In this document: one piece after another, positions 23,333 to 40,342 of the stretch
Layout of the letters: every line of letters starts with the position of its first letter
How positions within the stretch are numbered: position 1 is the stretch's first letter
Origin: Nocardioides iriomotensis
GTDB lineage: Bacteria; Actinomycetota; Actinomycetes; Propionibacteriales; Nocardioidaceae
Assembly: GCF_004168035.1 (NCBI RefSeq)
Contig: NZ_SDPU01000034.1
Coordinates: 124,001 to 188,000, forward strand
Length of the DNA stretch: 64,000 bases
Reading direction: 5' to 3'
Program-made: the position numbers and the translations under genes
The notes under the pieces: generated by a model
Database searches by the model: none
Seen by the model: the letters and a program-made list of their open reading frames with translations, nothing else
Told to the model about the DNA's origin: nothing

Positions 23333-24130
23333 TCACCGGCGCGGAGCGGCCAGCAGGTCCTCGTGCTGCACGGTGACCGCGAGACTGCCCGACTCGACCT
23401 GCGCGACCCGTCGCGCCGCCCACGCCGCCGCGGGAGCGGCCAGGTCCGGGCGCTGCTCGACGGCAGCGGCGACCCAGCCCTCGAGCCAGGCCAGCAGCAG
23501 CTCGCCCGTCGCCGCGTCGAGCCGCCACGGACTGGCGGCGGTGCGCACGTCCTGACCGCGTGCGCGGAACGCCGCCGCGACGGCGGACGGCGCGTCGGGG
23601 CCGAGCAGGTCCCCGCCACGCACGGGGCGGCGCTGGTGGGCGTTGAACGCGTCGCGAAGCGCGCTGTCGAGCGGGTCGGAGGGGTCCAGGGCGACCTCGC
23701 CGGTCACGTCGAGCGTGACGAGCACCGGTGCCCCCGACGACGCGCACGCCGCGACAAAGCCGGCCAGCTCCTCGGCGGTCAGGATGTCGAGCAGCGCCGA
23801 CGACGTGACCAGCCCCGCCCCGGACAGGGCGTCCGGCGCGAGCGCCGTGACGTCGCCCGCGCGGGTCTCGACAAGCGCGCCGGGCGGCGCGTCCTCGGCG
23901 GCGATCGCGAGCAGCTCCGGGTCGCGGTCGTGCAGCACCCAGGTCTGCTGTGCGGGCGGCACCGGCAGCAGCGGCGCGAGCCAGCGGCCCATCGAGCCCG
24001 ACCCGCAGCCGAGGTCGTGCACCACCAGCGGGCCGGTCAGGAGAGGTCGGAGCGCGTCGACCAGGTCGCGCGACCGGGCCGCGGCGTCCGCCGGCTCCCG
24101 CAGCGCGAGCCAGGCGGGGAACGTCGTCAC
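23333..24130 (-). CDS. Class I SAM-dependent methyltransferase-like protein
   Basis: A 265-residue protein from ATG 24130. The SAM motif I is VVHDLGCGSGSMGRWLAPLL about residues 36-55. The acidic end of strand 2 is VLHDRDPELL and motif III surrounds GAGLVTSSALLDIL. The frame continues past the chosen ATG, but the divergent gene begins 20 bases away, which supports this start. It is probably one of two methyltransferases serving the downstream cluster; the substrate is unknown. It is not obviously a ribosomal or DNA enzyme. Confidence 0.8.
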   Translation of the reverse strand: MTTFPAWLALREPADAAARSRDLVDALRPLLTGPLVVHDLGCGSGSMGRWLAPLLPVPPAQQTWVLHDRDPELLAIAAEDAPPGALVETRAGDVTALAPDALSGAGLVTSSALLDILTAEELAGFVAACASSGAPVLVTLDVTGEVALDPSDPLDSALRDAFNAHQRRPVRGGDLLGPDAPSAVAAAFRARGQDVRTAASPWRLDAATGELLLAWLEGWVAAAVEQRPDLAAPAAAWAARRVAQVESGSLAVTVQHEDLLAAPRR

Positions 24131-24150
24131 GGTCGAACCTCTCGAGCGGG

Positions 24151-25500
24151 GTGCTGAACCGGGTGGTGGCCACCTCCGTACTACCAGGCGTGCTCCTGCC
24201 GGCCGTCGTGACCCTCGCGTGCCTCGCCGGGCTGCTTGTCGCGGTGCGGCACGGCCTGCGGGCGTACGGCGACCGGCCGAGCCCGGCCGACCTCGTCACG
24301 CTCGCGCGGGCCGGGTTGGCCTGTGCCTGCGCGGGTCTCGTCACGGCGCGGCTCGGGACGTCGCCTGCGCCGGACCTCCTGGCCGGGCTCGCCGCCGTGT
24401 CGCTCGCGCTGGACCTGGTCGACGGCCGGGTCGCCCGCCGTACCGGGACGGGGACGCGGTTCGGCGCGCGGTTCGACGGCGAGGCCGACGCGTGGCTGAT
24501 GCTCGTGCTCTCGGTGTACGTCGCGTCGTGGTGGGGGTGGTGGCTGCTGGCCCTCGGCCTGGTCCGCTACGTGTTCGGGGCGGCCGGCGCCGTGCTGCCG
24601 TGGCTTCGCGACGAGCTGCCGCTGCGCTACTGGCGCAAGGTGGTGACGGCGACCGCCGGCGTCGCGCTGGTGGCCGGGACGGCCGGCGTTTTGGGTGACC
24701 GCGTGACGATGCTGCTGCTCGTGCTCGCCGCGGCACTGCTGGCCGAGTCGTTCGGCCGCGACGTGCTGTGGCTGTGGCGGCACCGCCGCCGCCGGCACGA
24801 CGGGGCCACCCGGGCGGCGCGGGCGGCGGCTTACGGGCCGGGCGAGTTCGTCGGGCAGGAGAGCTTCGTCCGGGCGAGCGAGGTGCTCGCGATCGCGGCG
24901 AAGGCGGGCGTCGGGCCGGGCGCCAGGGTCCTCGACCTCTGCTGCGGCGTCGGCGGCCCCGGGGTCCACGTCGTGCGGTCCCTCGGTGGGCACTACCTGG
25001 GCGTCGACCGCAGCGCCTCGGCCGTCGCGGTCGCGCGCCGCCGGGCCCGCGGGCTGGACTGCCGGTTCGAGGTCGCGACGGTGCCGCCGCTCCCAGCCGG
25101 GACGTTCGACGTGGTGCTGCTGCTCGAGACCATGCTGGCGTTCCCCGACAAGGACGCGCTGCTGCGTGCGGTGGCGGGCGCCCTGCCGGAGAGCGGACGG
25201 TTCGCGTTCACGGTCGAGGTGGGCGAGCCGCTCACCGCCGTGGAGCGCGCCGCCATGCCGGCCGCGGACACGGTGTGGCCGGTCCCGCGGGCCTGCCTCG
25301 ACGACCTGCTCGGCCGGCACGGGTTCCGCGTGACGTGGTCCGACGACCACACCCCCGCGCACCGCGACGTCGCCGCCGCCCTCGCCGCGGCGTACACCGA
25401 TCCCGACCTCGTGGCGTCGCACGCCCTCTGGCGCGACTGGCTCGCGTCCGGCCGGATCCGCAAGCAGGCCGTGGTCGCCGAACGGGTCGGTGCAGGATGA
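24151..25500 (+). CDS. CDP-alcohol phosphatidyltransferase fused to a SAM methyltransferase
   Basis: A 449-residue fusion. GTG 24151 is chosen; another GTG lies 12 bases later. The first 215 residues are a polytopic CDP-alcohol phosphatidyltransferase with the complete motif DG(x2)AR(x8)G(x3)D(x3)D at 91-113 and the extra upstream Asp at 88, so it should be active. After a basic linker (about 209-235) the frame continues without stop into a class I methyltransferase with LDLCCGVGGPGVHVV (261-275) and LGVDRSASAVAVARRR. The enzyme would couple an alcohol or sugar-alcohol to a CDP-activated lipid and methylate it or a pathway neighbour. In one chain the combination is unusual. Confidence 0.85.
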   Translation: MLNRVVATSVLPGVLLPAVVTLACLAGLLVAVRHGLRAYGDRPSPADLVTLARAGLACACAGLVTARLGTSPAPDLLAGLAAVSLALDLVDGRVARRTGTGTRFGARFDGEADAWLMLVLSVYVASWWGWWLLALGLVRYVFGAAGAVLPWLRDELPLRYWRKVVTATAGVALVAGTAGVLGDRVTMLLLVLAAALLAESFGRDVLWLWRHRRRRHDGATRAARAAAYGPGEFVGQESFVRASEVLAIAAKAGVGPGARVLDLCCGVGGPGVHVVRSLGGHYLGVDRSASAVAVARRRARGLDCRFEVATVPPLPAGTFDVVLLLETMLAFPDKDALLRAVAGALPESGRFAFTVEVGEPLTAVERAAMPAADTVWPVPRACLDDLLGRHGFRVTWSDDHTPAHRDVAAALAAAYTDPDLVASHALWRDWLASGRIRKQAVVAERVGAG

Positions 25501-25543
25501 ACCGGAACGCGCTCCGCTGCGTGCAACCAGGGTGGGAGGTGTG

Positions 25544-26056
25544 ATGCCCGAGACGCCGGCCGCGGCCATGAAGGCGCTGTACGACGAGCACGCGTCGGCG
25601 CTCTGGGCGTTCTGCATGCGGCTGACCGGACAGGACCGTGCGCGCGCCGAGGACGTGGTGCAGGAGACGCTGCTGCGCGCGTGGCGCAACGAGACCGTGC
25701 TCGAGGGCGGGCACGGCTCGGTGCGCGCGTGGCTCTACACGGTGGCCCGCAACATCGTCATCGACGAGTGGCGCACGCACCGCTCCGAGCGCGAGCTCTC
25801 GGTCGCCCAGGTCCCCGACACCACGCCGACGGGCGACCGCACCGACGACCTGCTCACCTCCTGGATCGTCGCCGAGGCGATCACCAAGCTGTCGCCGGAG
25901 CACCGGGGCGTGCTGCTCGAGTGCTACTACCGCGGCGCCTCCGTCGCGGAGGCTTCTCGGCGCCTCGGCGTCCCGCAGGGGACGGTGAAGTCGCGCTGCC
26001 ACTACGCCCTGCGCGCGCTCGCGCTCGCCCTCGAGGAGATGGGGGTGAGGCCATGA
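25544..26056 (+). CDS. ECF sigma factor, SigL-like
   Basis: A 170-residue ECF sigma. ATG 25544 follows GGGAGGTGTG. Region 2 contains LYDEHASALWAFCMRLTGQD and the -10-recognition AEDVVQETLLRAWR. Region 4 is the helix-turn-helix VAEASRRLGVPQGTVKSRCHYALRAL. The sequence pattern resembles mycobacterial SigL. The stop overlaps the anti-sigma start by 4 bases (ATGA), the standard arrangement for ECF/anti-sigma pairs. Target genes may include its own operon and the cell-surface genes on either side, but no matching promoter pair was found. Confidence 0.9.
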   Translation: MPETPAAAMKALYDEHASALWAFCMRLTGQDRARAEDVVQETLLRAWRNETVLEGGHGSVRAWLYTVARNIVIDEWRTHRSERELSVAQVPDTTPTGDRTDDLLTSWIVAEAITKLSPEHRGVLLECYYRGASVAEASRRLGVPQGTVKSRCHYALRALALALEEMGVRP

Positions 26057-26730
26057 GCTGCGAGCACGCCCACGACGACGCCGCCTACGTGCTGGGTGCG
26101 CTCTCGTCGACCGAGCGGGCGGCGTACCAGGAGCACCTCGCCACCTGCGCCGAGTGCACCCAGGCGGTGCGCCGGCTCTCGGGCCTGCCCGGACTGCTGT
26201 CCCGGGTGAGCCTCGACGTGCTCGAGGCGCCCGCGCCGGCGGAGCCGGTCCCGGACACGCTCCTGCCGGCGCTGGTCGCGCAGGCCCGCCGCCGGCAGCG
26301 CCGCCGGTCGTGGTCGATCGCCGCCGCGGCGGCCGCCGCAGCGATCGTGCTGACCGGTGGCGCGGTCGCCCTGGGCGGCTACCTGGCCCAGGACCAGGCG
26401 GCCCCGCCCGCCGCCGTGGAGCAGCCGATGACCCGCGTCGCGGACATCCCGGTCACCGCCGAGGTCGGGCTCACGAGCGTCGACTGGGGCACCCGGCTCG
26501 ACCTGACCTGCACCTACGCCGAGCCGACGTCCGGGGACGGGCAGGAGTGGCCCTACGCGCTGGTCGTGCGCACCCGGGCCGGCGGCAGCGAGCGGGTCGC
26601 GAGCTGGGTGGCCAAGCCCGGCCGGACGTTCCGGCTGAGCGGTGCCACGGCCAGCCCGGCCGAGGACATCGCATCGGTCGAGATCCAGTCCCTCGACGGC
26701 CGGACCCTGCTCCGGCTCCGGACGTCCTGA
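26053..26730 (+). CDS. Zinc-binding anti-sigma factor
   Basis: A 225-residue membrane protein. The N-terminal ZAS domain has the signature H28-x3-C32-x2-C35 (EHLATCAEC) preceded by DDAAYVLGALS. One transmembrane helix lies at about 91-114. The external part, about 110 residues, is beta-rich (LDLTCTYAEP, YALVVRTRAGG) and could be the sensor. It should hold the ECF factor encoded just upstream at the membrane until a surface or redox signal releases it. It resembles RslA-type anti-sigmas. Confidence 0.9.
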   Translation: MSCEHAHDDAAYVLGALSSTERAAYQEHLATCAECTQAVRRLSGLPGLLSRVSLDVLEAPAPAEPVPDTLLPALVAQARRRQRRRSWSIAAAAAAAAIVLTGGAVALGGYLAQDQAAPPAAVEQPMTRVADIPVTAEVGLTSVDWGTRLDLTCTYAEPTSGDGQEWPYALVVRTRAGGSERVASWVAKPGRTFRLSGATASPAEDIASVEIQSLDGRTLLRLRTS

Positions 26731-26742
26731 GGGCGTGTCGTG

Positions 26743-28386
26743 TCAGCCCGCGCCGAACGCCCTCAGGAACCGGTCCCGGAACGCCTCCATCGGCCACACG
26801 GGGGCGTCCGGTCCGGGTCGCAGCCCGTCGTCCCAGCCCCACCCGGTGACCCGGTCGAGCACCGCAGGGTCCCGCGCGAGGAGGCTGACCGGCACGGCGT
26901 GGTCGGGGTCGCCGCCGGTCACGTAGCTGTGCGGCTGGTGGTCGCCGAGCAGCACGACGACCAGGTCGTCGTCCGCGGGCCGGCGCTGCAGCCACGCGCA
27001 GGTCGTCCGCAGCGAGTAGACGATGCTGCGGCCGTACGCCGCCCGCACGGCGTCGTCGTCGGCGAGCAGCGCCTCCTCGTCGGGCTGGTCGGCGCGCTGG
27101 CCGCGGAACACCCGGCCGTCGCCGAGCTCGTCCCACGGCACGCTCCGAGGCAGCGGCGTCCAGGGGTGGTGGCTCGACGAGAGGTCGACCTCGGCCATCA
27201 CCGGCGGCCGCTCGGGGACGTCGAGCACGCGCCGGCCGAAGGCGTCGAGGGCGTACTGGTCGGGCACCCGCGACCAGCCGAACGCCGGCCCGTCGTACCC
27301 GGTGGCCTGCGTCCCGAACAGCTCGTCGTACCGGTAGAACCGCTGCCCCTCCGGCCACGCCCGGCGCACCGAGGGCAGCGCGAAGACCGTACGCCAGCCG
27401 GCCCGGCCGAACGCCTCGGTCAGCGTGAGGCGCCGCGCGTTCATCAGCTGGTCGTAGCGCTGCTGGGTGTCGACCCGGAGCCCGGACTGCAGGGTGGCGT
27501 GCGCGAGCCAGCTGCCGGCGCCGTACGTCGGGGAGTCGAGCCAGCCGCTGCGCGCCGCGAAGCCGGCGCCGGCCAGCGACTCCGTGCAGTCCGCGAGAGC
27601 CCGTTCCGTCGCCGGTCCGAGCACCGGGTCGTCGAGCGCGACGCGGCCGTAGCTCTCGACGTAGAGCACCAGCACGTCCTTGCCGGCCAGGCCGGGCAGC
27701 CGCGGCGACCCCTCCACGTCGCGGGCCAGCGGGTCGGTGCGGATCTCCTCGGTGAACCGGGACCGGTCCGCGAGGTCGGCGCGCAGCTGTCGCACGTCGG
27801 TCCACACCCGGTCGGCCGCGCTGGCGCTCGCCACCTGGCCCTCGTCCGCGACCTGCCACCCGGCGGTGCGGGCGACGCCCCAGACCAGGCCGAGGACGAC
27901 GGCGACGGCCACGGCGGCGCGGCGGTGCGCAGCCGCGACGCCCGTCAGCCGCAGGGTCGCGAGGGGGAGCAGCACGAGCACCGCGACGGCCGCCAGCCCG
28001 GCGACCACACCGGCCGCCACGGCGACCCCGAGACCCTCGGTGTCGCGCAGCACGCCGAGGCCCGGGCCGAGGTACGCCCAGTCCACGACCGGGTCGAAGT
28101 CGCGGACGAAGACCGCGTTGAACCCGATGTTCAGCAGCGTGGCCAGCAGCACCAGCGCGAGCAGCACCCCGGCGACGACGGCCACCACGCGCCGCGGTCG
28201 GCGCGGCAGCACGACGGCGAGAGCCAGCAGCACCACCGCCTCGACGGGCACGCGGACGAACGCGTCGGCGGTGAGGTACTGCCGCTCGTCCGGCAGCACC
28301 AGCGCGACCCACACGACGACAGCCGCGAGCACGGTGAGGACAGCGGCGGTCGCGCTCGCTCGTCGGGGTCGTCGCACACCTGTCAT
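26743..28386 (-). CDS. Membrane sulfatase-family (LtaS-like) hydrolase/transferase
   Basis: A 547-residue protein from ATG 28386. Five or so transmembrane helices occupy residues 12-185, then an extracytoplasmic alkaline-phosphatase-fold domain. It contains VLVLYVESYGRVALDDP, with the metal-binding Glu of the sulfatase/phosphoglycerol-transferase group, STYGAGSWLAHATLQSG, which carries the likely Thr/Ser nucleophile region, and the C-terminal LLGDHQPHS metal motif. The architecture is like lipoteichoic acid synthase or sugar-phosphoglycerol transferases. It probably adds a phosphoalcohol to a surface glycolipid outside the membrane. Its stop is 12 bases from the anti-sigma stop on the other strand. 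Confidence 0.82.
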   Translation of the reverse strand: MTGVRRPRRASATAAVLTVLAAVVVWVALVLPDERQYLTADAFVRVPVEAVVLLALAVVLPRRPRRVVAVVAGVLLALVLLATLLNIGFNAVFVRDFDPVVDWAYLGPGLGVLRDTEGLGVAVAAGVVAGLAAVAVLVLLPLATLRLTGVAAAHRRAAVAVAVVLGLVWGVARTAGWQVADEGQVASASAADRVWTDVRQLRADLADRSRFTEEIRTDPLARDVEGSPRLPGLAGKDVLVLYVESYGRVALDDPVLGPATERALADCTESLAGAGFAARSGWLDSPTYGAGSWLAHATLQSGLRVDTQQRYDQLMNARRLTLTEAFGRAGWRTVFALPSVRRAWPEGQRFYRYDELFGTQATGYDGPAFGWSRVPDQYALDAFGRRVLDVPERPPVMAEVDLSSSHHPWTPLPRSVPWDELGDGRVFRGQRADQPDEEALLADDDAVRAAYGRSIVYSLRTTCAWLQRRPADDDLVVVLLGDHQPHSYVTGGDPDHAVPVSLLARDPAVLDRVTGWGWDDGLRPGPDAPVWPMEAFRDRFLRAFGAG

Positions 28387-28432
28387 ACGGATCCAGGATC
28401 GCGCGGGTTCACCGCGCCGGGGGAGGGCCGCG

Positions 28433-29410
28433 ATGGCTGACGCGACGGCGTTCTGGGTGACCGGCCCCGGGCGCGGCGAGCTGCGGCCCGCCGCGCTGCC
28501 GCAGTCCGGCCCGGACGACGTGCAGGTGCGCACCCTGCACACCGGCGTCAGCCGCGGCACCGAGACGCTCGTGCTCGCCGGTCGGGTCCCCGACAGCGAG
28601 CGGGAGCGGATGCGCGCGCCGTTCCAGGAGGGCGACTTCCCGGCGCCCGTGAAGTACGGCTACCTCAACGTCGGCGTCGTCGAGCACGGACCCGACCCGC
28701 TGGTCGGGCGGACCGTCTTCACCCTGTACCCCCACCAGGACCGGTACGTCGTGCCCGCCGCCGCGGTCGCCGTGGTCCCGGACGGCGTGCCGCCGCGTCG
28801 GGCCGTGCTCGCGGGCACCGTCGAGACCGCGGTCAACGCGTTGTGGGACGCCCGGCCGCTCGTCGGCGACCACCTGACGGTCGTGGGCGCCGGCATGGTC
28901 GGCTGCTGCGTCGCACGGCTGCTCTCCGGCGTCCCCGGCACCGTCGTGACCCTCGTCGACGTCGACCCGTCGCGGGCGGCGGTCGCCGAGGCGCTCGGTG
29001 TCCGGTTCGCGCTGCCGGAGGAGGCGACCGGCGACCAGGACCTCGTGCTGCACGCCAGCGCGACCGCGGCCGGGCTCGCCCGGTCGCTCGACCTCCTCGG
29101 GAGGGAGGGGGAGGTCGTCGAGCTCAGCTGGTACGGCGACCGCCCGGTCACGGTCGCGCTCGGCGGCGCCTTCCACGCGGGCCGGCTGGCCATCCGCGCC
29201 AGCCAGGTCGGTGCCGTGTCGCCGGCCCGCCGCGCCCGCCGTACCCACGCCGACCGGCTCGCGCTGGCCCTCGACCTGCTCCGCGACCCGGCGTACGACG
29301 CGCTGCTCACCGGCCGCTCGCCGTTCGCCGACCTGCCCGACGTGCTGCCGCGGCTCGCCTCCGGCGACCTGCCCGCGCTGTGCCACACGATCGACTACCC
29401 GGAGGCCTGA
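28433..29410 (+). CDS. MDR-superfamily dehydrogenase, zinc-ligand-poor
   Basis: A 325-residue protein from ATG 28433 behind GGGAGGG. It has the medium-chain dehydrogenase plan: a GroES-like N-terminal half and a Rossmann NAD(P) domain with VVGAGMVGCCVARLL about residues 150-165. In place of the catalytic Cys region it has TGVSRGTETLVLAGRVP, the S-R-G-T-E form seen in BchC-like members, and the structural-zinc Cys cluster is absent. It is therefore probably a zinc-independent reductase or dehydrogenase. It is the first gene of a six-gene coupled operon; the PTPS-like gene begins 3 bases after its stop. Confidence 0.85.
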   Translation: MADATAFWVTGPGRGELRPAALPQSGPDDVQVRTLHTGVSRGTETLVLAGRVPDSERERMRAPFQEGDFPAPVKYGYLNVGVVEHGPDPLVGRTVFTLYPHQDRYVVPAAAVAVVPDGVPPRRAVLAGTVETAVNALWDARPLVGDHLTVVGAGMVGCCVARLLSGVPGTVVTLVDVDPSRAAVAEALGVRFALPEEATGDQDLVLHASATAAGLARSLDLLGREGEVVELSWYGDRPVTVALGGAFHAGRLAIRASQVGAVSPARRARRTHADRLALALDLLRDPAYDALLTGRSPFADLPDVLPRLASGDLPALCHTIDYPEA

Positions 29411-29413
29411 GCG

Positions 29414-29791
29414 ATGTTCAGCGTGACCGTCCGCGACCACATGCTCGTGGCGCACAGCCTGCGCGGTGAGGTGTTCGGGCCGGCGCAGCGGCTGCACGGC
29501 GCGACCTACGTCGTCGACGTGACCTTCCGCGGGCCGGAGCTCGACGACGACGGCATCCTCGTCGACATCGGCTGGGCCACCGAGACCCTGCGCGACGTGA
29601 TGGGCGACCTGGGCTACCGCAACCTCGACGACGAGCCGGACCTGGCCGGCCTCAACACCACCACCGAGGTGCTGGCCCGGGTCGTCGCCGACCGCGTCGT
29701 CGCACGGCTCACCACCGACGCCGTCCGGACGGTCGCGGTCACCCTGCACGAGTCGCACGTCGCGTCGGCCGGCTACGAGCGGTCGGTGTGA
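29414..29791 (+). CDS. 6-pyruvoyl-tetrahydropterin synthase/QueD family protein, altered active site
   Basis: A 125-residue T-fold protein. His14 (VAHSL) and His28 (LHGA) match two zinc ligands of PTPS/QueD, but the usual HGH is HGA here, so the third histidine is missing. No Cys is present in residues 20-28, where the family places its nucleophile. NTTTEVLA and the terminal HES(x3)AGYER are retained, so the pterin-binding Glu may remain. The protein is thus unlikely to be a standard PTPS. It lies in an operon with RibA and a RibD-type reductase, which supply pterin/flavin-like pyrimidines, and its stop overlaps the glycosyltransferase start by 4 bases. Confidence 0.82.
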
Positions 29792-30756
29792 CCGCGATGC
29801 GCCGCCTCCGTGCCGTCGTCCCCGCCGGGCTCGACGACCCCACCCGCCCGAGCGGCGGCAACGCCTACGACCGGCGCGTGCTCGACGGACTGCGCCGACG
29901 CGGCTGGGTGGTGCGCGAGACCGACACCTTCGACGGGGCGCGCGACGGGGCGCTGGTGCTCGCCGACGGGATGCTCGTCGCCCAGGACCCGTCCGGGGCC
30001 CTCGACGTCGCGGAGCGCTGCCGGCTCGTGGTCCTGGCCCACATGAGCTGGGGGCGGGAGCACCACGTGCTGCGGGAGGCCCACGCCGTGGTGACCACCA
30101 GCCGGCACACCCGCGACGCCCTCGACCTGCCGGACGGCCGCGTGCACGTCGTGCGCCCCGGAGTCGACCCCGCGCCGCTCGCCCGCGGCAGCGGCCTGCT
30201 CTCCGTCGGCGCGGTCGTGCACGGCAAGGGGCACGACGTCCTGGTGCGCGCCCTCCGCCGGCTCGACGACCTGTCCTGGAGCTGCACCGTCGTCGGTGCG
30301 CTCGACGTCGAGCCGGACTTCGTCGCGCGGCTGCCCCGGCACGACCGGGTCGCGTTCACCGGGCCGCTGCACGGGCGTGGCCTCGAACGCGCCTACGCCG
30401 CCGCCGGGCTGCTCGTGCTGCCCTCACGGCACGAGGCCTACGGCATGGTCGTCACCGAGGCGCTGGCCCGCGGCATCCCGGTCGTCGCCGGTGACGTCGG
30501 CGGCGTGCGGGAGGCGCTCGGGACGACGAGCGGCGGGTACCCCGGCCTCCTCGTGCCGTCCGACGACGACGTCGCCCTCGCCGAGGCGCTCCGCCTGTGG
30601 CTCACCGACCCTGTGCTGCGCGCCCGCCTGCAGCGCTGGGCCGCCGACCGCCGTACCCGGCTGGCGGGGTGGTCCGCGGCCGTCGCCGGCGTCGAAGACG
30701 TGCTGACCTCCGTCGCGGGTGAACCGGTCGGGCGTCCGGCCCGTACAGGAAGGTAG
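29788..30756 (+). CDS. Glycosyltransferase family 4
   Basis: A 322-residue GT-B enzyme beginning at GTG 29788 (GTGA overlap with the upstream stop). An N-terminal acceptor half contains [15 protein letters not shown]. The C-terminal donor half has [34 protein letters not shown] and the nucleotide-sugar-binding E(x7)E motif in [17 protein letters not shown]. It would transfer a sugar from a nucleotide donor to an acceptor made by the other operon enzymes or to the CDP-alcohol lipid. The donor sugar is not deducible. Confidence 0.88.
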
Positions 30757-30769
30757 CGGGAGGAGCGCC

Positions 30770-31600
30770 ATGACGAGCCTGGGACGGTGGGCGGGGCGCG
30801 CGGTCGGCATGGCCGTGCTCGTCGTGCTCGCGCTCCGGCTCGGCAGCGAGCCCTTCCTCCACGGCCTCACCGCGGTCGGGCCGGCCGCCCTCGTGAGCGC
30901 GCTCGTCGTCGGTGCCCTCACCACGCTGGCGAGCGCGTGGCGGTGGCGGCTGGTCGCGCGGCACCTCGGGCTCGGCGGCCTCTCGCTCCGCGCCGCGATC
31001 GCGGCCTGCTACCGCTCGCAGCTGCTCAACGCCGCGCTGCCCGGCGGCGTCCTCGGCGACGTGCACCGCGCGATCCGCCACGGCCGCCGAGCCGGGACGA
31101 CCGGTCTCGCCGCCCGGTCCGTCGCGTGGGAGCGCGGGCTCGGGCAGCTCGTCCAGATCGCGGTGACGCTGCTGGCGCTCCGGCTCTGGCTGCCCGCCGC
31201 CGTCGCCGTCCTGCTGCTCAGCGCCGGGCTCGTGCGGTTCCGGGCGGTCGCGCTCGGCGTGGTCGCCGCGTCGCTCGCCGCGCTGGCCGGCTACTCGCTG
31301 CTGTTCCTGGTCGCCGCCTCCGCCACCGGCTCCTCGCCGCCGCTGCCCGTGGTGCTGCTGGTGCTCCTGGCCGCCGCCGTACCCCTGAACGTCGGGGGCT
31401 GGGGCCCCCGCGAGGGCGCCGCCGCCTGGGCCTTCGCGTCCGCCGGGCTCGGCGCCGACCAGGGTCTTGCCGCCTCGGTGGCGTACGGCGTGCTCGCGCT
31501 CGTGTCCACGCTGCCCGGCCTGGCCGTCCTCCTCCTCACCCGCCCCGCCCCGCCCGCTCCACCCACCCGTGTCGCCACCCCGGAGGTGAGCCGTGCCTGA
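30770..31600 (+). CDS. LPG-synthase transmembrane-domain (flippase-like) protein
   Basis: A 276-residue integral membrane protein from ATG 30770 behind GGGAGGAG. About seven helices carry the family marks of the lysylphosphatidylglycerol-synthase TM domain: SAWRWRLVARHLG, LPGGVLGDVHRA and GGWGPREGAAAWAF. There is no aminoacyl-transferase domain, so, like AglD/MprF-TM homologues, it may flip a lipid-linked product. It overlaps the RibD-type gene by 8 bases. Confidence 0.85.
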   Translation: MTSLGRWAGRAVGMAVLVVLALRLGSEPFLHGLTAVGPAALVSALVVGALTTLASAWRWRLVARHLGLGGLSLRAAIAACYRSQLLNAALPGGVLGDVHRAIRHGRRAGTTGLAARSVAWERGLGQLVQIAVTLLALRLWLPAAVAVLLLSAGLVRFRAVALGVVAASLAALAGYSLLFLVAASATGSSPPLPVVLLVLLAAAVPLNVGGWGPREGAAAWAFASAGLGADQGLAASVAYGVLALVSTLPGLAVLLLTRPAPPAPPTRVATPEVSRA

Positions 31601-32294
31601 CCGCCCCTACACCGTGCTGTCCTGCGCGATGTCGCTCGACGGCTACCTCGACGACACCGCCGACCAGCGCCTGGTGCTGTCGAACCAGGCCGACCTCGAC
31701 CGCGTCGACGCCGTCCGGGCGTGGAGCGACGCGATCCTCGTCGGCGCCGGCACCGTCCGCATCGACAACCCGCGGCTGCTCGTGCGCGACCCGGACCGCC
31801 GACGGCAGCGTCGCGCCGACGGGCGGCCCGCGACGCCGTGCAAGGTCACCGTCACCGGCAGCGGCGACCTCGACCCGGACGCTCCGTTCTTCGCGACCGG
31901 TGACGTCGACAAGCTCGTCTACTGCGCCACCGACGCCGTCGAGAAGGCCTCCCGGCTGCTCGGCCACGTCGCGACCGTCGTCGACGCCGGCCAGCCCGTC
32001 GACCTGGGGGAGGTGCTCGCGCACCTGCACGGCCGCGGCATCCGGCGCCTCATGGTCGAGGGCGGCGGCACCGTGCTGACCCAGCTGCTCACCGCCGCGC
32101 TGGCCGACGAGCTGCACCTCGTCGTGGCGCCGTTCTTCGTCGGCGACTCCGAGGCACGCCGCCTCGTCGACGACGGCGACTACCCCTGGCGCGCCGAGCA
32201 CGGCGCCCGGCTCCTGGAGAGCCGCACGATCCGGGACGTCGTCCTGCTGCGCTACGCACTCTCGGCCCGGGTCGTCGACGGGGGAGTGCGATGA
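31593..32294 (+). CDS. RibD C-terminal-type reductase (DHFR-like family)
   Basis: A 233-residue protein from GTG 31593. It has the DHFR/RibD-C fold: SCAMSLDGYLDD at the N-terminus, DAILVGAGTVRIDNPRL binding NADPH, RRLMVEGGGTVLTQLL, and ADELHLVVAPFFVG. In riboflavin synthesis this domain reduces the ribosyl side chain of the RibA product to ribityl. Here there is no deaminase domain, and the partner RibA is encoded immediately downstream with a 4-base overlap, so the pair likely makes a reduced diaminopyrimidine for the cluster product. Confidence 0.88.
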   Translation: MPDRPYTVLSCAMSLDGYLDDTADQRLVLSNQADLDRVDAVRAWSDAILVGAGTVRIDNPRLLVRDPDRRRQRRADGRPATPCKVTVTGSGDLDPDAPFFATGDVDKLVYCATDAVEKASRLLGHVATVVDAGQPVDLGEVLAHLHGRGIRRLMVEGGGTVLTQLLTAALADELHLVVAPFFVGDSEARRLVDDGDYPWRAEHGARLLESRTIRDVVLLRYALSARVVDGGVR

Positions 32295-32914
32295 CGCTGA
32301 CCCCGCTGCCGGTCGCCACCGTGCGCACCCAGGTCGACCTGCCGCTGCGCCGCAGCGACGGGCACCGCACCCTCGCCCGGGCGACGACCTTCGACGGCCT
32401 GGTCGACGGGGCCGAGCACCTCGCCCTCGTGCTCGGTCGCGCCGACCGCGCCACCCCGCCGCTGGTGCGCCTGCACAGCGAGTGCCTGACCGGTGACCTG
32501 TTCGGCAGCCAACGCTGCGACTGCGGCCCGCAGCTCGACGAGGCGGTCCGCCGGATCACCCGCGCGGGCGGCTACCTGCTCTACCTCCGCCAGGAGGGCC
32601 GCGGCATCGGGCTCTACGCCAAGCTCGACGCCTACACCTTGCAGGACACCGGCCTCGACACCTACGACGCCAACCTGGCGCTGGGGTACGCCGCCGACGG
32701 GCGCACCTACGCGGCCGCCGCGCAGATGCTGCACGCCCTCGGAGTGGTGGAGGTGGACCTGCTCACCAACAACCCCGACAAGGCCGCGCAGCTCGAGGCG
32801 CACGGCATCCGCGTCCGGCAGCGGGTGCCGACCGCGGTGCACGTCAGCCACGCCAACGTGCACTACCTCGCCGCCAAGGCCCGCCGGGGCGGGCACGACC
32901 TCCTTTACCCGTAA
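32291..32914 (+). CDS. ribA: GTP cyclohydrolase II
   Basis: A 207-residue single-domain GTP cyclohydrolase II without the RibB fusion common in actinobacterial riboflavin operons. Zinc ligands are Cys65, Cys76 and Cys78 (SECLTGDLFGSQRCDC). RQEGRGIGLYAKL carries the GTP-binding Arg and LLTNNPDKAAQL the C-terminal site. Tyr115 aligns with E. coli RibA Tyr105, the residue linked to complete hydrolysis versus formamide product. So canonical 2,5-diamino-6-ribosylamino-pyrimidinone phosphate is expected. It is the last gene of the coupled operon and probably a specialised paralogue. Confidence 0.9.
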   Translation: MTLTPLPVATVRTQVDLPLRRSDGHRTLARATTFDGLVDGAEHLALVLGRADRATPPLVRLHSECLTGDLFGSQRCDCGPQLDEAVRRITRAGGYLLYLRQEGRGIGLYAKLDAYTLQDTGLDTYDANLALGYAADGRTYAAAAQMLHALGVVEVDLLTNNPDKAAQLEAHGIRVRQRVPTAVHVSHANVHYLAAKARRGGHDLLYP

Positions 32915-32924
32915 CCTTGCGGCC

Positions 32925-34040
32925 GTGCGGTGCGGCTACTACGACGCGGGGCTCTGCCGGTCGTGCACCTGGCTGCCCACGCCGTACGCCGCGCAAGTGG
33001 AGGCCAAGCAGCGGCACGCCGCCGACCTGCTCGCCGCGTGGCCCGACCTCACCTGGCTGCCGCCGGTGACGGGTCCCGAGGAGGGGTTCCGCAACAAGGC
33101 CAAGATGGTCGTCGCGGGCACCGTCGACGAGCCGACGCTCGGCATCCTCGACGCGACCGGCCACGGCACCGACCTTCGCGAGTGCGGCCTGCACGAACCG
33201 GTCCTGCACGACGCGCTGCCGGCCCTGGCCGCGTTCGTGACCCGCGCCCGCCTCACGCCGTACCACGTGCCCACGCGCACCGGCGAGCTCAAGCACGTGC
33301 TGGCCACCGTCTCGCCGGACCGCGAGCTGATGGTCCGGTTCGTGCTGCGCTCGACCGAGTCACTCGCCCGGATCCGCAAGCACCTGCCCTCGCTCCGGGC
33401 CGACCTGCCGCACCTGCGCGTGGTGTCGGCCAACCTGCAGCCGCGGCACGCCGCCGTGCTCGAGGGCGAGCACGAGGAGCCGCTGCTCGGCGACTCGCTC
33501 GCCTTCCGGGTCGACGGGATCACCCTGCACCTGCGTCCGCAGAGCTTCTTCCAGACCAACACCGCCGTCGCGGCCGCGCTGTACCGCGAGGGCGCGGCGT
33601 GGGTCGACGACGCCGACCCGACGTCGGTGTGGGACCTCTACTGCGGCGTCGGCGGCTTCGCCCTGCACCTGGCCCGCCCCGGACGCGACGTGGTCGGCGT
33701 CGAGGTCAGCGCCCAGGCGGTCGAGGCGGCCCGGCTCAGTGCCGAGGAGGCTGGGGTGACCGCCCGGTTCGAGGAAGCCGACGCCACCACCTGGATGACC
33801 GCGCGGCCGGCCGCGCCCGACCTCGTCGTGGTGAACCCGCCGCGGCGGGGGATCGGCCCGGAGCTCGCCGCCTGGCTCGAGCGCTCCGCGGTCCGGCACG
33901 TCCTGTACAGCAGCTGCAACCCGACCACCCTCGCGCGCGACCTGGCCGCGATGCCGTCCCTGACGCCGGTGCGGGCGCGGGTGTTCGACATGTTCCCGCA
34001 GACGGCGCACCAGGAGGTGCTGGTCCTCGCGAGCCGTTGA
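32925..34040 (+). CDS. rlmC: 23S rRNA (uracil-C5)-methyltransferase, RlmC type
   Basis: A 371-residue protein from GTG 32925. It closely follows E. coli RlmC: it opens MRCGYYDAGLCRSC with iron-sulfur Cys at 3, 11 and 14, has the fourth in LRECGLHEP, then GFRNKAKMVVAG, RPQSFFQTN and WDLYCGVGGF for SAM. VNPPRRGIG and the nucleophile Cys in YSSCNPTTLARDL complete the site. It methylates U747 of 23S rRNA (E. coli numbering) or an equivalent uracil. It sits 10 bases after ribA and may be cotranscribed without sharing its pathway. Confidence 0.9.
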   Translation: MRCGYYDAGLCRSCTWLPTPYAAQVEAKQRHAADLLAAWPDLTWLPPVTGPEEGFRNKAKMVVAGTVDEPTLGILDATGHGTDLRECGLHEPVLHDALPALAAFVTRARLTPYHVPTRTGELKHVLATVSPDRELMVRFVLRSTESLARIRKHLPSLRADLPHLRVVSANLQPRHAAVLEGEHEEPLLGDSLAFRVDGITLHLRPQSFFQTNTAVAAALYREGAAWVDDADPTSVWDLYCGVGGFALHLARPGRDVVGVEVSAQAVEAARLSAEEAGVTARFEEADATTWMTARPAAPDLVVVNPPRRGIGPELAAWLERSAVRHVLYSSCNPTTLARDLAAMPSLTPVRARVFDMFPQTAHQEVLVLASR

Positions 34041-35996: not shown

Positions 35997-37511
35997 GTGC
36001 GGTACGGCTTCGCGATCGACCAGCGCACGTGCATCGGCTGCCATGCCTGCACCGTCGCGTGCAAGACCGAGCACCAGGTCCCGCTGGGGCAGTTCCGCAC
36101 CTGGGTGAAGTACGTCGACTCCGGCACGTTCCCGGACACCCGCCGTGACTTCGGGGTGATGCGCTGCAACCACTGCACCGACGCGCCGTGCGTGACGATC
36201 TGCCCGACCGGCGCGCTGTTCAAGCGCGACGACGGGATCGTCGACTTCGACTCCTCGGCGTGCATCGGCTGCAAGTCCTGCCTGCAGGCCTGCCCGTACG
36301 ACGCGATCTACATCGACGAGGACACCCAGACGGCAGCGAAGTGCAACTTCTGCGCGCACCGCGTCGACGACGGGCTCGAGCCGGCCTGCGTCGTGGTCTG
36401 CCCGACGCACTCGATCTGGGTGGGCGACCTCGACGACGAGCAGTCCGGGATCTCCCAGCTCGTCGCGAGCAACGAGACCGCCGTCCGGGCTCCCGACCAG
36501 GGCACCGGCCCCAACGTCTTCTACCTCGGCGCCTCGCCCGCCGTGCTCGACCCGCTCGAGGCACCGGTCCGCGGCACCTACCTCTGGGCGCAGCCCGACG
36601 AGCTCCGCCTGGCGACCTCGGTCGACTTCGACGGCAGCGACCCGACCGCCGCGACCACGCTCAACACCGCGCACCCGCGGCCGTGGGGCTGGCGGGTCGT
36701 GACCTACCTCTGGACGAAGGGGTTCGGCGCCGGGGCGCTCGCCGTCGCCGCGCTCGCCGTGGTGCTCGGCATCGACCTCGGTGTGACCGGAGCGGTGGTC
36801 GCCCCGGTCGTCGCGGCCGTTGGCGCGGCCCTGACCGGCGTCCTGCTCGTGTGGGACCTCAAGCGCCCCGAGCGGTTCTACTTCCTGTTCACCCGCGGCA
36901 ACCACCGGTCGTGGCTCGTGCTCGGCGGCTACTGCCTGCTGGCCTTCGGGGTCGTCGCGGTCGCGTGGTTCGTCTCCGGCGTGCTCGACGCCGACGGCGC
37001 CCAACGGGTGCTGGCGTGGCCGGTGCTCCTGGCGGCGGCGATGGTGGCCGGTTACACCGCGTTCCTGTTCGGGCAGGCCGAGGGCCGTGACCTGTGGCAG
37101 TCGCGCTGGCTCTTCCCGCACCTGCTCGCCCAGGCGCTGATGACCGGCGCCGGCGTCATTGCGGTCGCCCTCGCCCTCGCCGGGGCTGCGGGGCGGGCCA
37201 CCACGCTCACCGCCGCCGTGCTGGTCGTCGGCGCGGTGCTGCACCTCGTGCTCGCCGGGGTCGACCTCGGCGGCCACCACGAGAGCCCGGGCGCCGCTGT
37301 CGCCGCCCGGACCATCCTGCGCGGCCGCTACCAGCGGCTGTTCCTCGCCGGTGCCGTCGCGCCGACCGTGCTGGCCGTGCTCCTCGCCGCCGTCACCTGG
37401 GCCGGCGGGTCGCCGTACCTCGCCGCGCTCGCGGGGCTGCTGGTGCAGCCCGCCCTGCTCGCCTACGAGACCGCCTACGTCCGGGCGGGACAGGACGTGC
37501 CGCTCTCATGA
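35997..37511 (+). CDS. 4Fe-4S electron-transfer subunit fused to NrfD-like membrane subunit
   Basis: A 504-residue fusion from GTG 35997. Residues 1-170 are a PsrB/HycB-type ferredoxin: C12-C15-C18-C22 opens the first of four clusters, followed by CNHCTDAPCVTICPTGAL, CIGCKSCLQACPYDA and CNFCAHRVDDG. From about residue 225, eight or so hydrophobic helices form an NrfD/PsrC-like quinone-reacting subunit (VLLVWDLKRPERFYFLFTRGN is the NrfD signature). Normally these are two proteins. It supplies the electron wire and membrane anchor for the catalytic subunit encoded downstream with a 4-base overlap. Confidence 0.9.
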   Translation: MRYGFAIDQRTCIGCHACTVACKTEHQVPLGQFRTWVKYVDSGTFPDTRRDFGVMRCNHCTDAPCVTICPTGALFKRDDGIVDFDSSACIGCKSCLQACPYDAIYIDEDTQTAAKCNFCAHRVDDGLEPACVVVCPTHSIWVGDLDDEQSGISQLVASNETAVRAPDQGTGPNVFYLGASPAVLDPLEAPVRGTYLWAQPDELRLATSVDFDGSDPTAATTLNTAHPRPWGWRVVTYLWTKGFGAGALAVAALAVVLGIDLGVTGAVVAPVVAAVGAALTGVLLVWDLKRPERFYFLFTRGNHRSWLVLGGYCLLAFGVVAVAWFVSGVLDADGAQRVLAWPVLLAAAMVAGYTAFLFGQAEGRDLWQSRWLFPHLLAQALMTGAGVIAVALALAGAAGRATTLTAAVLVVGAVLHLVLAGVDLGGHHESPGAAVAARTILRGRYQRLFLAGAVAPTVLAVLLAAVTWAGGSPYLAALAGLLVQPALLAYETAYVRAGQDVPLS

Positions 37512-40342
37512 CCGCTCTCCCCGGGGACCGCAGCCACGAGCACCTGCGCAGCTTCCCGCCGCCGGAGACGTGGGACCACCACGTCGCCACCGACGCCAAG
37601 GCCCACCCGCGCAAGGTCACGCGCGAGTTCATGCTGATCCCCACGACCTGCTTCAACTGCGAGTCCGCGTGCGGCCTGCTCGCCCACGTCGCCAAGGACG
37701 ACCTGACCGTCACCAAGGTCGAGGGCAACCCCGCGCACCCGGGCTCGCGCGGCCGCAACTGCGCCAAGGGACCGGCCACCATCAACCAGCTCGACGACCC
37801 CGAGCGCATCCTCCACCCGCTCAAGCGTGTCGGCGACCGCGGCGCCGGCGGCTGGGAGCGGGTGTCGTGGGACGAGGCGCTCGACGACATCGCAGCCCGC
37901 ATCCGCGCCGCGATCGAGGCCGACCGCCGCGACCGCGTCGTCTACCACGTGGGCCGGCCGGGCGAGGACGGCTTCGCCGAGCGGTTCCTGCTCGCCTGGG
38001 GCGTCGACGGGCACAACAGCCACACCAACATCTGCTCCGCCGGCGCGCGGCTCGGCTACACGACGTGGGGCGGCTACGACCGGCCCTCGCCCGACTACGC
38101 CAACGCCAAGGTCATCCTGCTGCTGTCGTCGCACCTGGAGACCGGCCACTACTTCAACCCGCACGCGCAGCGGATCATGGAGGCCAAGGCCCAGGGCAAC
38201 GCCAAGCTCGTCGTGCTCGACGTGCGGATGTCCAACACCGCCAGCCACGCCGACCTCTGGCTCGCGCCCTGGCCCGGCAGCGAGGCGGCGATCCTGCTCG
38301 CCGTCGCGTCGCACCTGCTGCAGACCGGTCAGGTGGACCGCGACTACCTGCGCCGCTGGGTCAACTGGGACACCTACCTCGACCGCCTGCACCCGGACCT
38401 GCCGCGCGACTTCGACACCTTCATGACGGCGCTGGCCGACGACTACGCGCACTACACCTTCGACTTCGCCGCCGAGGAGAGCCAGGTCCCCGCCGGGCGG
38501 ATCCGCGAGCTGGCCGAGATCGTCGCGACCTCCGGCTCCGCGCTGTCCGCGCACATCTGGCGCTCCGCCGCGGCCGGCAACCTGGGCGGCTGGCAGGTCG
38601 CGCGCAGCCTGTTCTTCCTCAACGTGCTCACCGGCAGCGTCGGTACGCCCGGCGGCACCAGCCCCAACGGCTGGGACAAGCTCATCGCCCACGGCTTCGA
38701 CGTACCGGAGGGCGGCGACGTCTGGAACGAGCTGCTGTGGCCGCGCGAGTACCCGCTGTCCACCAACGAGATGTCGTTCCTCCTCCCGCACCTGCTGCAG
38801 GACGGCCGGGGCGACCTCGACGTCTACTTCACTCGCGTCTACAACCCCGTGTGGACCAACCCCGACGGCTTCTCCTGGATCGAGACGCTCACCCGCACCG
38901 ACGGGATCGGCCTGCACGTCGCCCTCACGCCGACGTGGTCGGAGACGGCGACCTTCGCCGACTACGTGCTGCCGATGGGGCACGCGACGGAGCGGCACGA
39001 CACGCACTCCTACGAGACGCACGCCGCCAAGTGGCTCGGCTTCCGCCAGCCGGTCAAGCGCGTCGCCATGGACAAGCTCGGGATCCCGTACGCCGACACC
39101 CGCGACAGCAACCCGGGGGAGGTGTGGGAGGAGAACGAGTTCTGGTTCGAGCTCTCCTGGCGGATCGACCCGGACGGGTCGCTCGGCATCCGGCGCTACT
39201 TCGAGTCGCCGTACCGGCCGGGCGAGAAGGTCACCGTCGACGAGTACTACCGGTGGGTCTTCGAGAACCGCGTGCCCGAGCTGCCGGAGAAGGCCGCGGA
39301 GCAGGGGCTCACGCCGATGGAGTACATGCGGAAGTACGGCGTCGTGGAGATCGCCAGGGACGTGTACCGGCAGGACGAGCGCCCGCTGACGGAGGCCGAG
39401 CTCGACGGGGCGGTCGCCGACGACCACGGCGTGCTGCGCAAGCCCACCACCGACGAGTCGACGCCCCCGCTGGTGGGGGAGGCGGGCGCCGTCGGGATCC
39501 GCCTCGACGACGGCTCCGAGGTCGCCGGCTGGCTGTCGCCGAGCCGCAAGCTCGAGCTGTGGTCCGACGCGATCGCGTCGTTCGGCTGGCCCGAGCTCGC
39601 CGTCCCGACGTACATCGAGTCGCACGTGTCCCGGCGCACGATCGACGCCGGCAAGGGCGAGATGGTGCTGGTGCCGACGTTCCGGCTGCCGACGCTGATC
39701 CACACGCGCTCCGCGAACGCCAAGTACCTCAACGAGATCAGCAACACCCACCCGGTCTGGATCCACGACGATGACGCGCGCCGGCTCGGCGTCGCGACCG
39801 GCGACCTGGTCCGGGTGACGACGAGGATCGGCCACTTCGTCGCGCGGGCGTGGGCGCACCAGGGCATCCGGCCCGGAGTCGTGGCACTCAGCCACCACAT
39901 GGGCCGCTGGCGGCTGGACGACATCCACGCGAGCAGGTGGGCCAGCGGCAAGGTCGACATGGAGCGCACCGACGACGGCGTGTGGCGGATGCGCTACACC
40001 GAGCCCACCACGCCGTTCAGCAGCGACGACCCGGACAGCCGGCGCATCTACTGGGAGGACCCCGGCGTCCACCAGAACCTCACGTTCCCGGTCCAGCCCG
40101 ACCCCTGGTCGGGCGCGCACTGCTGGCACCAGCGCGTCACGGTGGCGCCGGCGCAGCCGGGGGACCGGTACGGCGACATCGAGGTCGACACCCAGCGGGC
40201 CCGCGAGGTCTACCGCGAGTGGCTCGCGCTCACCAGACCCGGGCCCAACGCCGACGGCCTGCGCCGGCCGGAGTTCATGATGCGGCCGGTGAAGCCGAAG
40301 CGGAAGGCGTTCCGCCTCGACCCGCCGCCCACGACGGCCTAG
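37508..40342 (+). CDS. Molybdopterin oxidoreductase, catalytic subunit
   Basis: A 944-residue DMSO-reductase-superfamily enzyme from ATG 37508. A 4Fe-4S cluster is bound by C48, C51, C55 and C85 (TTCFNCESAC, RNCAKG). The probable Mo ligand is Cys176 in NICSAGAR. The C-terminal molybdopterin-guanine-dinucleotide domain contains NEISNTHPVWIH and LSHHMGRWRLDD. There is no twin-arginine signal, so the active site faces the cytoplasm, unlike PsrA/PhsA. The substrate is not evident. Related three-part enzymes act on sulfur compounds or phenylacetyl-CoA. Confidence 0.88.
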   Translation: MTALPGDRSHEHLRSFPPPETWDHHVATDAKAHPRKVTREFMLIPTTCFNCESACGLLAHVAKDDLTVTKVEGNPAHPGSRGRNCAKGPATINQLDDPERILHPLKRVGDRGAGGWERVSWDEALDDIAARIRAAIEADRRDRVVYHVGRPGEDGFAERFLLAWGVDGHNSHTNICSAGARLGYTTWGGYDRPSPDYANAKVILLLSSHLETGHYFNPHAQRIMEAKAQGNAKLVVLDVRMSNTASHADLWLAPWPGSEAAILLAVASHLLQTGQVDRDYLRRWVNWDTYLDRLHPDLPRDFDTFMTALADDYAHYTFDFAAEESQVPAGRIRELAEIVATSGSALSAHIWRSAAAGNLGGWQVARSLFFLNVLTGSVGTPGGTSPNGWDKLIAHGFDVPEGGDVWNELLWPREYPLSTNEMSFLLPHLLQDGRGDLDVYFTRVYNPVWTNPDGFSWIETLTRTDGIGLHVALTPTWSETATFADYVLPMGHATERHDTHSYETHAAKWLGFRQPVKRVAMDKLGIPYADTRDSNPGEVWEENEFWFELSWRIDPDGSLGIRRYFESPYRPGEKVTVDEYYRWVFENRVPELPEKAAEQGLTPMEYMRKYGVVEIARDVYRQDERPLTEAELDGAVADDHGVLRKPTTDESTPPLVGEAGAVGIRLDDGSEVAGWLSPSRKLELWSDAIASFGWPELAVPTYIESHVSRRTIDAGKGEMVLVPTFRLPTLIHTRSANAKYLNEISNTHPVWIHDDDARRLGVATGDLVRVTTRIGHFVARAWAHQGIRPGVVALSHHMGRWRLDDIHASRWASGKVDMERTDDGVWRMRYTEPTTPFSSDDPDSRRIYWEDPGVHQNLTFPVQPDPWSGAHCWHQRVTVAPAQPGDRYGDIEVDTQRAREVYREWLALTRPGPNADGLRRPEFMMRPVKPKRKAFRLDPPPTTA

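Follow-up and report, generated by a model that had tools for sequence, protein, structure and literature searches.

What might a bacterium make from GTP with genes that join enzymes of the riboflavin families to a degenerate PTPS homolog, a glycosyltransferase, and membrane and lipid proteins? The question is raised by positions 23333 to 32914 of a contig stretch from Nocardioides iriomotensis; the window, as used here, is the whole stretch of 64,000 nt. An earlier sequence-only reading had proposed a GTP-derived, lipid-linked pathway whose product it could not name. That outline stands, namely a dedicated, conserved cluster, read as GTP-derived, with glycosyl transfer and membrane or lipid genes. 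No description of the product was found in the literature surveyed, most subscription journals lying outside that survey. The cluster itself is not unseen, as a structure exists for its PTPS member (S. coelicolor SCO6650, 3d7j) and the GTP cyclohydrolase II (GCH II) proteins of S. coelicolor were studied in 2006. We conclude that the cluster is a real, widespread, dedicated pathway, and the present analysis adds two cluster versions with differing chemistry as well as a set of promoter-like sites. On balance, and with some reserve, we favor a dedicated, sigma-controlled pathway that would yield a GTP-derived 2-amino-4-oxopyrimidine (or dihydropterin) that is glycosylated and probably tethered to a phospholipid.

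Conservation of the gene cluster

A search of genome contigs for the PTPS-like protein gave at least 582 confirmed relatives, of which the 80 best were fetched with their surroundings. They come from Streptomyces, Micromonospora, Salinispora, Amycolatopsis, Pseudonocardia, Actinomadura, Modestobacter, Terrabacter, Knoellia, Nocardioides, Aeromicrobium, Thermoleophilia bins, and others. The genes for the MDR dehydrogenase, the PTPS-like protein, and the GT4 glycosyltransferase (28433–29410, 29414–29791, and 29788–30756 in the window, all on the plus strand) lie near one another in collinear order in 69 of the 71 fetched loci showing all three. Well-flanked loci, with at least 7 kb on either side, number 54 of the 80; once three PTPS copies of Streptomyces that have neither MDR nor GT4 are set aside, 51 remain. 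MDR is linked in all 51, GT4 and the LPG_synthase_TM or flippase-like membrane protein (LPG; 30770–31600, plus strand) in 49 each, and the GCH II RibA (32291–32914, plus strand) in 47. A creatininase-family gene or a RibD_C reductase gene (31593–32294, plus strand; counted at 50% identity or above) is linked in 48, the CDP-alcohol phosphatidyltransferase gene (24190–25500, plus strand) in 46, and the methyltransferase gene MT1 (23333–24130, minus strand) in 43. The sequence-only reading had proposed as a check that PTPS-like, RibD_C, RibA, and CDP-alcohol transferase genes co-occur; as far as sequence can tell they do so across genera, with a creatininase gene standing in for RibD_C in some loci. 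The sulfatase-like gene and the sigma/anti-sigma pair, which that reading had listed just upstream, are linked in some lineages only: relatives of the sulfatase-like gene, 43–52% identical, are linked in 24 of the 51 loci and the anti-sigma gene in 5.

Presence of the PTPS-like gene (15 genomes) and of MDR (14 genomes) is concordant in 57 of 58 related genomes. The single discordant genome holds MDR pieces in different frames (L021:8027-8606), reflecting either a disrupted gene or a sequencing error. Among 396 genomes drawn from the phylum, 39 have a PTPS match at 1e-15. Ten of these matches are close forms, counting that of the window itself, 24 belong to a distant version in one family (f21), and 5 are of other kinds; the single one of these 5 to be examined (G242, locus L162) proved a true QueD. 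With only 10 of the 396 genomes holding it, the close form has a patchy distribution in the phylum.

Some PTPS-like genes have other surroundings. Four Streptomyces loci (L058, L082, L091, and L110) carry lone copies without MDR or GT4 in a differing, partly shared neighborhood. MDR and PTPS-like genes also occur on a 3003-base contig (L100) of the proteobacterial assembly Inquilinus limosus MP06, where contamination is likely. One 4.9 Mb contig (G003:C1) has the cluster at both ends (L025 and L026) with equal PTPS and MDR scores, which probably reflects a circular overlap that was left untrimmed.

Two versions of the cluster

We compared 70 RibA sequences, window included; the set contains the non-cluster locus L162 and one contig twice (L034 and L095). 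All 70 keep the zinc cysteines (SEC...C.C). They differ at the switch position, where tyrosine reportedly marks a GCH II that forms 2,5-diamino-6-ribosylamino-4(3H)-pyrimidinone 5'-phosphate (APy). Tyrosine is present in 47, with creatininase matches in none of those loci, and the remaining 23 carry Met in 16 cases, His in 6, and Gln in 1, with a creatininase-family gene in all 23 loci (type B). The window RibA, with all three zinc cysteines and the motif KLDAYTLQ, is of the Tyr type and is partnered by RibD_C; a linked RibD_C of at least 50% identity accompanies 45 of the 47 Tyr-type enzymes. In the RibA tree the two cluster types form separate clades (46/46 and 23/23; node support 0.86) that are not sisters under a midpoint root. 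GCH II therefore seems to have been recruited twice into the same core, and the 23 non-Tyr cases are one clade rather than independent events.

Streptomyces coelicolor SCO6655 reportedly yields the formylated intermediate 2-amino-5-formylamino-6-ribosylamino-4(3H)-pyrimidinone 5'-phosphate (FAPy), owing to a Met where Tyr is canonical, a result ascribed to Spoonamore et al. in 2006. Work of that group and year on S. coelicolor GCH II proteins is referenced in PMC3509567, and SCO6655 is given as a GCH II in PMC2853524. The type-B order in L161 is PTPS, GT4, MT1, LPG, creatininase, RibA; taking the S. coelicolor order from L161, SCO6655 fits the type-B RibA by gene count from SCO6650 to SCO6655. 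The pairing of a non-Tyr GCH II with a creatininase suggests FAPy formation followed by deformylation, so that both versions would reach one diaminopyrimidine. On this simplest reading, a FAPy-forming enzyme that has an amidohydrolase beside it would do the work of one that forms APy directly.

The window RibD_C protein has 233 residues (Pfam 5.6e-40) and no deaminase domain match. Its best NCBIfam match is archaeal APy reductase TIGR01508 (4.1e-39; 133.9 bits, under the 186.45 cut-off). Because this reductase stands alone, the expected product in the window is a reduced, non-deaminated pyrimidine.

Both RibA and RibD_C belong to riboflavin enzyme families, and SCO6655 is filed under riboflavin metabolism in PMC2853524. 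A second RibA and a RibD_C could accordingly be imagined to boost ribitylaminouracil flux as an extra supply of riboflavin or deazaflavin precursors. We regard this as very improbable. Deaminase, RibE, and 3,4-dihydroxy-2-butanone 4-phosphate (DHBP) synthase were unmatched among the scanned cluster proteins, and the habitual partners of the two genes are instead GT4, MDR, the PTPS-like gene, and membrane proteins. The same source gives expression of SCO6655 and SCO2687 as anticorrelated with predicted flux (−0.61 and −0.52; PMC2853524). Elsewhere, the window genome has a second GCH II fused to DHBP synthase (RibBA), near a deaminase-reductase RibD and the lumazine-binding RibE (G000:C18). That second enzyme excludes the cluster ribA as the only one of the genome, the finding that would have favored a plain riboflavin role. 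The genome also has two GCH I genes.

As a separate observation, a locus of an apparent Streptomyces genome (L192:7942-10549) carries a reductase-deaminase fusion with the RibD domains in reversed order. It lies away from the cluster, and the RibA close to it groups as sister to the cluster RibA of the Tyr type.

PTPS-like protein and MDR dehydrogenase

The PTPS-like T-fold protein is an ortholog of S. coelicolor SCO6650, PDB 3d7j (phmmer 2.7e-46; Pfam 6.4e-25). In PTPS and QueD enzymes the first His binds zinc and a Glu anchors the pterin ring. We used the QueD of L162 (104.8 bits, above the 89.25 cut-off) as reference. The motif FGPA..LHGA occurs in 100 of 100 cluster-type sequences, a set that includes the window and a few repeated contigs. 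The position of the QueD catalytic Cys (C...HGH) is Ala, HGH has become HGA with loss of the third zinc His in all 100, and the Asp-His pair is lost. His14 is invariant, as is Glu113 (16/16), which aligns to the L162 QueD Glu. The protein is thus degenerate, as first proposed, yet retains the first His and the Glu. Ten f21 homologs readable in frame keep HGH but not the Cys. We commit to a 2-amino-4-oxopyrimidine or a dihydropterin as the predicted ligand. A QueD or queuosine role was considered and rejected, as the QueD motif is absent and no PTPS-family gene besides that of the window was found in the genome.

The MDR protein is BchC/polyol-dehydrogenase-like (BchC 5.1e-14, below cut-off), with profile matches to threonine, iditol, xylitol, and idonate dehydrogenases. 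SxGTE, PHQ, ETA, and SWY are invariant in 22 sequences. The places held in zinc MDRs by CGTD and GHE read SRGTE and YGY in alignment A2, judged by eye rather than residue by residue against a zinc enzyme. The AlphaFold model (predicted local distance difference test, pLDDT, 85) has only general fold neighbors. Oxidation of a ribityl hydroxyl would fit this protein, because of its zinc-free look and its kinship to BchC and to threonine and polyol dehydrogenases.

These enzymes could also open a pterin route without GCH I, in which GCH II, RibD_C, and MDR give a 1'-deoxy-2'-keto side chain through a reduction followed by a re-oxidation. With a 2'-ketone in place, the 5-amino group could close the pyrazine ring of a dihydropterin within the PTPS-like scaffold. 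The reduced pterin would then be the glycosylated, methylated head of a new membrane phospholipid in the aerial hyphae and spores of S. coelicolor. We consider this specific route unlikely.

Membrane, glycosyl, and methyl transfer genes

The sequence-only reading gave gene coordinates, gaps of 3–13 bases, and overlaps of 4–8 bases that were all reproduced here; on the plus strand the spacings are +3 (MDR-PTPS), −4 (PTPS-GT4), +13 (GT4-LPG), −8 (LPG-RibD_C), and −4 (RibD_C-RibA). Pfam and NCBIfam profile scans, by which families were assigned, bore out most of its family calls; those for Sulfatase and MDR (ADH_zinc_N) are weak, both lying below Pfam cut-offs. GT4 (Pfam 3e-25) has the E-x7-E motif, with conservation in 87 sequences, and LPG is matched at 2.4e-15.

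The gene at 24190–25500 encodes a CDP-alcohol phosphatidyltransferase fused to a methyltransferase (CDP-OH_P_transf 4.6e-12 and Methyltransf_25 4.8e-12, scanned as the 24163–25500 version). The motif of CDP-alcohol phosphatidyltransferases is DxxDGxxAR(x8)GxxxDxxxD. The window sequence, DLVDGRVARRTGTGTRFGARFDGEAD, agrees with it, and the Pfam match is above cut-off; DxxDGxVAR...GAxFDxExD is kept at 95% or more in 60 relatives, a set that leaves aside the window's fusion. The nearest families, weakly and below all cut-offs, are archaetidylinositol- and phosphatidylinositol-phosphate synthases, which use polyol-phosphate acceptors. Ribityl phosphate is a polyol phosphate and may likewise serve as acceptor.

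MT1 is a class I S-adenosylmethionine-dependent methyltransferase (Pfam Methyltransf_25 1.2e-6), whose ortholog lies between GT4 and LPG in many relatives. Its AlphaFold model has a pLDDT of 96.5 and only generic methyltransferases as structure neighbors. A role in defense was dismissed, since among the five proteins scanned the only match was to mad2 through a methyltransferase domain.

Promoter-like sites and regulation

Three sites of the form TGAACC-N15-CCGT occur in the window, each at the start of a cluster gene: at 24155–24179 (plus strand), 5' of the CDP-alcohol gene; at 28387–28411 (minus strand), facing the sulfatase-like gene; and at 30720–30744 (plus strand), 5' of LPG and within the 3' end of GT4. 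The number expected is 0.26, and none of 100 shuffles reached three. The whole genome has 15 such sites, 3 of them in the cluster, and 1 for the reversed control. The looser pattern TGAACC-N15/16-CGTG has 32 genome sites and 6 in the reversed control; one with N16 at 25498–25523 (plus strand) lies 5' of the sigma gene and is weak alone. Window matches outside the cluster lie at 35807 and 48706. For the CDP-alcohol gene, a start at GTG 24190, right after its site, is the more probable one. The site before LPG speaks against a single transcript for the six plus-strand genes, which had been read as likely translated together.

The ECF (extracytoplasmic function) sigma factor gene (25544–26056, plus strand) is matched in regions 2 and 4 (Sigma70_r2 3.8e-17 and Sigma70_r4 7.6e-12), and the gene for a zf-HC2 anti-sigma factor (26053–26730, plus strand; 1.1e-6) overlaps it. 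Upstream of MDR in 17 anti-sigma-bearing loci, window included, TGAACC-N15-CCGT is present in 15, the exceptions being the window and L021. A scan of 98 loci (window excluded, a few contigs twice, T or C first, either form) placed 149 of 188 sites between about 260 bases upstream of and 40 inside a cluster-gene start on the correct strand, and found 2 reversed patterns. In sigma-linked loci a site precedes MDR in 15/16, sigma in 9/16, CDP-alcohol in 7/15, LPG in 4/13, and the sulfatase-like gene in 2/16, and none was found before PTPS (16 loci), GT4 (14), RibD_C (12), RibA (9), or anti-sigma (16). Across all loci the counts are 38/90 for MDR, 30/75 for CDP-alcohol, 24/80 for LPG, 2/95 for PTPS, and 1/68 for RibA. 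Five Streptomyces-type MDR upstream regions that were viewed have no such site. Because the motif was derived from part of the counted loci, the counts are descriptive and no test of it; the window shuffle is the cleaner control. We infer from the sites before several cluster units that the sigma/anti-sigma pair is tied to the cluster. Mycobacterial SigL may have a TGAACC-type consensus, but the string TGAACC did not occur in the papers searched for it.

The same sites bear on whether the locus joins two unrelated modules, one for the envelope (CDP-alcohol, methyltransferases, sulfatase-like gene, and sigma pair) and one GTP-derived, adjacent by chance or shared transfer. In the window the two sets do occupy differing strands or separate units, and the linkage of the sulfatase-like and sigma genes is confined to the minority of loci counted above. 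The CDP-alcohol gene nevertheless keeps its place close to MDR in many genera, even where the locus has been rearranged, and one promoter-like motif precedes units of both sets; we therefore think such an unrelated pairing improbable.

In S. coelicolor, SCO6652 would by gene count be MT1. Relative to the first mycelium its log2 expression is raised by 0.8 in the substrate, 4.3 in the aerial, and 4.1 in the spore stages, according to PMC3610822. A developmental product is thus likely in that species.

The membrane sulfatase-fold gene (26743–28386, minus strand; Pfam Sulfatase 0.0015, below cut-off) perhaps truly starts at GTG 28377. Downstream of the cluster, RlmC at 32925 looks like an ordinary housekeeping neighbor, because no ortholog was matched in a scan of 106 loci, many with short flanks; the sole match was 39% identical over 76 residues, in L157. 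Also downstream, open reading frames at 35997–40342 resemble, by eye, a molybdopterin oxidoreductase and a 4Fe-4S subunit that has a membrane part.

Discussion

The proposed pathway would begin with the opening of GTP by GCH II. As judged from residues and gene content, the Tyr-type enzyme of the window would reach APy alone, and in the other version a Met-, His-, or Gln-type enzyme would halt at FAPy, from which a creatininase-family amidohydrolase would take off the formyl group. RibD_C, to go by its family, would then turn the ribosyl into a ribityl phosphate, and the 2-amino group would be retained, unlike in riboflavin, because there is no linked deaminase. The apparently zinc-free MDR may next oxidize a side-chain hydroxyl, and the PTPS-like protein, without the catalytic Cys and third zinc His, may bind the product through its pterin-anchoring Glu. 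GT4 and the methyltransferases would decorate this product, the CDP-alcohol transferase could add a phosphatidyl group at the polyol-phosphate side, and the LPG-type protein might move the result outward. To judge by the promoter-like sites, the linked ECF sigma factor would turn the units on.

Several observations weigh against this proposed pathway. The Amycolatopsis loci L048 and L054 are without linked GT4, LPG, RibA, and RibD_C or creatininase; L056 is without CDP-alcohol, MT1, RibA, and RibD_C or creatininase, and L111 is without RibA. The MT1 and MDR folds point to no substrate, and no forward TGAACC-N15-CCGT site precedes MDR in the window. In type B, BLAST found no linked RibD_C in 17 of 23 loci, a distant one (27–29%) in 5, lying between LPG and creatininase, and one of 45% in 1. 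In favor of the proposal, all six genomes examined of the genus holding the type-B locus L161 have an unlinked RibD_C ortholog (56–60%), so that type B is not wholly without a reductase; RibA was matched in four of the five fetched regions around such orthologs. In L192 and L194, however, the orthologs that were viewed have the reductase fused to a deaminase (L192 by NCBIfam), and for this reason RibD_C may not serve type B. The type-B creatininase is nearer MftE than ArfB and below every equivalog cut-off; three proteins scored 34.6, 32.4, and 33.7 bits against ArfB NF033501, whose cut-off is 180. Its role here is therefore only inferred.

The f21 version, which has RibD_C, MDR, PTPS, and GT4 in a run in 4/4 loci, speaks for the proposal in this respect. 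A methyltransferase gene is next in the run (L157) or fused to GT4 (L156), and FolB and acyltransferase genes adjoin the run in L157. FolB is single in 6/6 f21-type genomes, near the PTPS gene in 5; as the sole FolB it must serve folate, and we rejected it as proof of a pterin product. CDP-alcohol and LPG relatives were not matched in the four f21 loci, which favors a soluble glycosylated pterin or pyrimidine, a cofactor or pigment, with the CDP-alcohol, flippase-like, and sulfatase-like proteins altering the envelope in parallel under shared regulation. Glycosylated pterins do exist in cyanobacteria. Set against this, the CDP-alcohol and LPG genes are linked in the well-flanked loci about as often as RibA, and an acyltransferase gene adjoins even the f21 cluster of L157. 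A soluble compound is in our view a serious but rather unlikely alternative to the lipid-anchored one.

The two versions suggest a logic in which GCH II, recruited on two occasions, supplies one core, each time beside the partner that its chemistry would need. The 2006 study is said to have described a bacterial GCH II whose reaction ends at FAPy, and the structure paper for 3d7j a PTPS homolog without an active site; in the literature surveyed no pathway is assigned to either. If the favored pathway is right in placing its product on a lipid, widespread soil bacteria would contain a redox-active or ultraviolet-absorbing membrane lipid of a new class.

Among the nearest known systems is S. coelicolor SCO6650–SCO6655, which shares the PTPS-like protein with the window and whose numbering fits the type-B order. 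The window is of the other version, with Tyr at the switch and RibD_C where type B has another residue and a creatininase, and it differs further in its sulfatase-like gene, methyltransferase fusion, and sigma pair. Riboflavin biosynthesis in archaea and fungi starts with GCH III (ArfA), the FAPy deformylase ArfB, and the APy reductase ArfC/Rib7. The cluster would resemble this start in running from GTP, by way of FAPy or not, through APy to a ribityl compound without a deaminase in the cluster, and in having a creatininase-family second enzyme in type B; it differs in using GCH II rather than GCH III, in a creatininase far below the ArfB cut-off, and in going on to MDR, the PTPS-like protein, GT4, and lipid genes. 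Toxoflavin-type pathways (ToxB/ToxE) likewise recruit GCH II and RibD-type enzymes for another product, but to our knowledge without the GT4, CDP-alcohol transferase, and flippase-like protein that the present cluster has. Cyanobacterial pterin glycosides such as biopterin glucoside and cyanopterin share with the cluster the PTPS family and a glycosyltransferase, but start from GCH I and involve no lipid genes. PTPS classes I to IV are named in PMC5041015, and our comparison is with the QueD (I) motif only. With QueD/PTPS (COG0720) the cluster protein shares the T-fold, the first zinc His, and the pterin-anchoring Glu, whereas the catalytic Cys, the third zinc His, and the Asp-His pair are lost.

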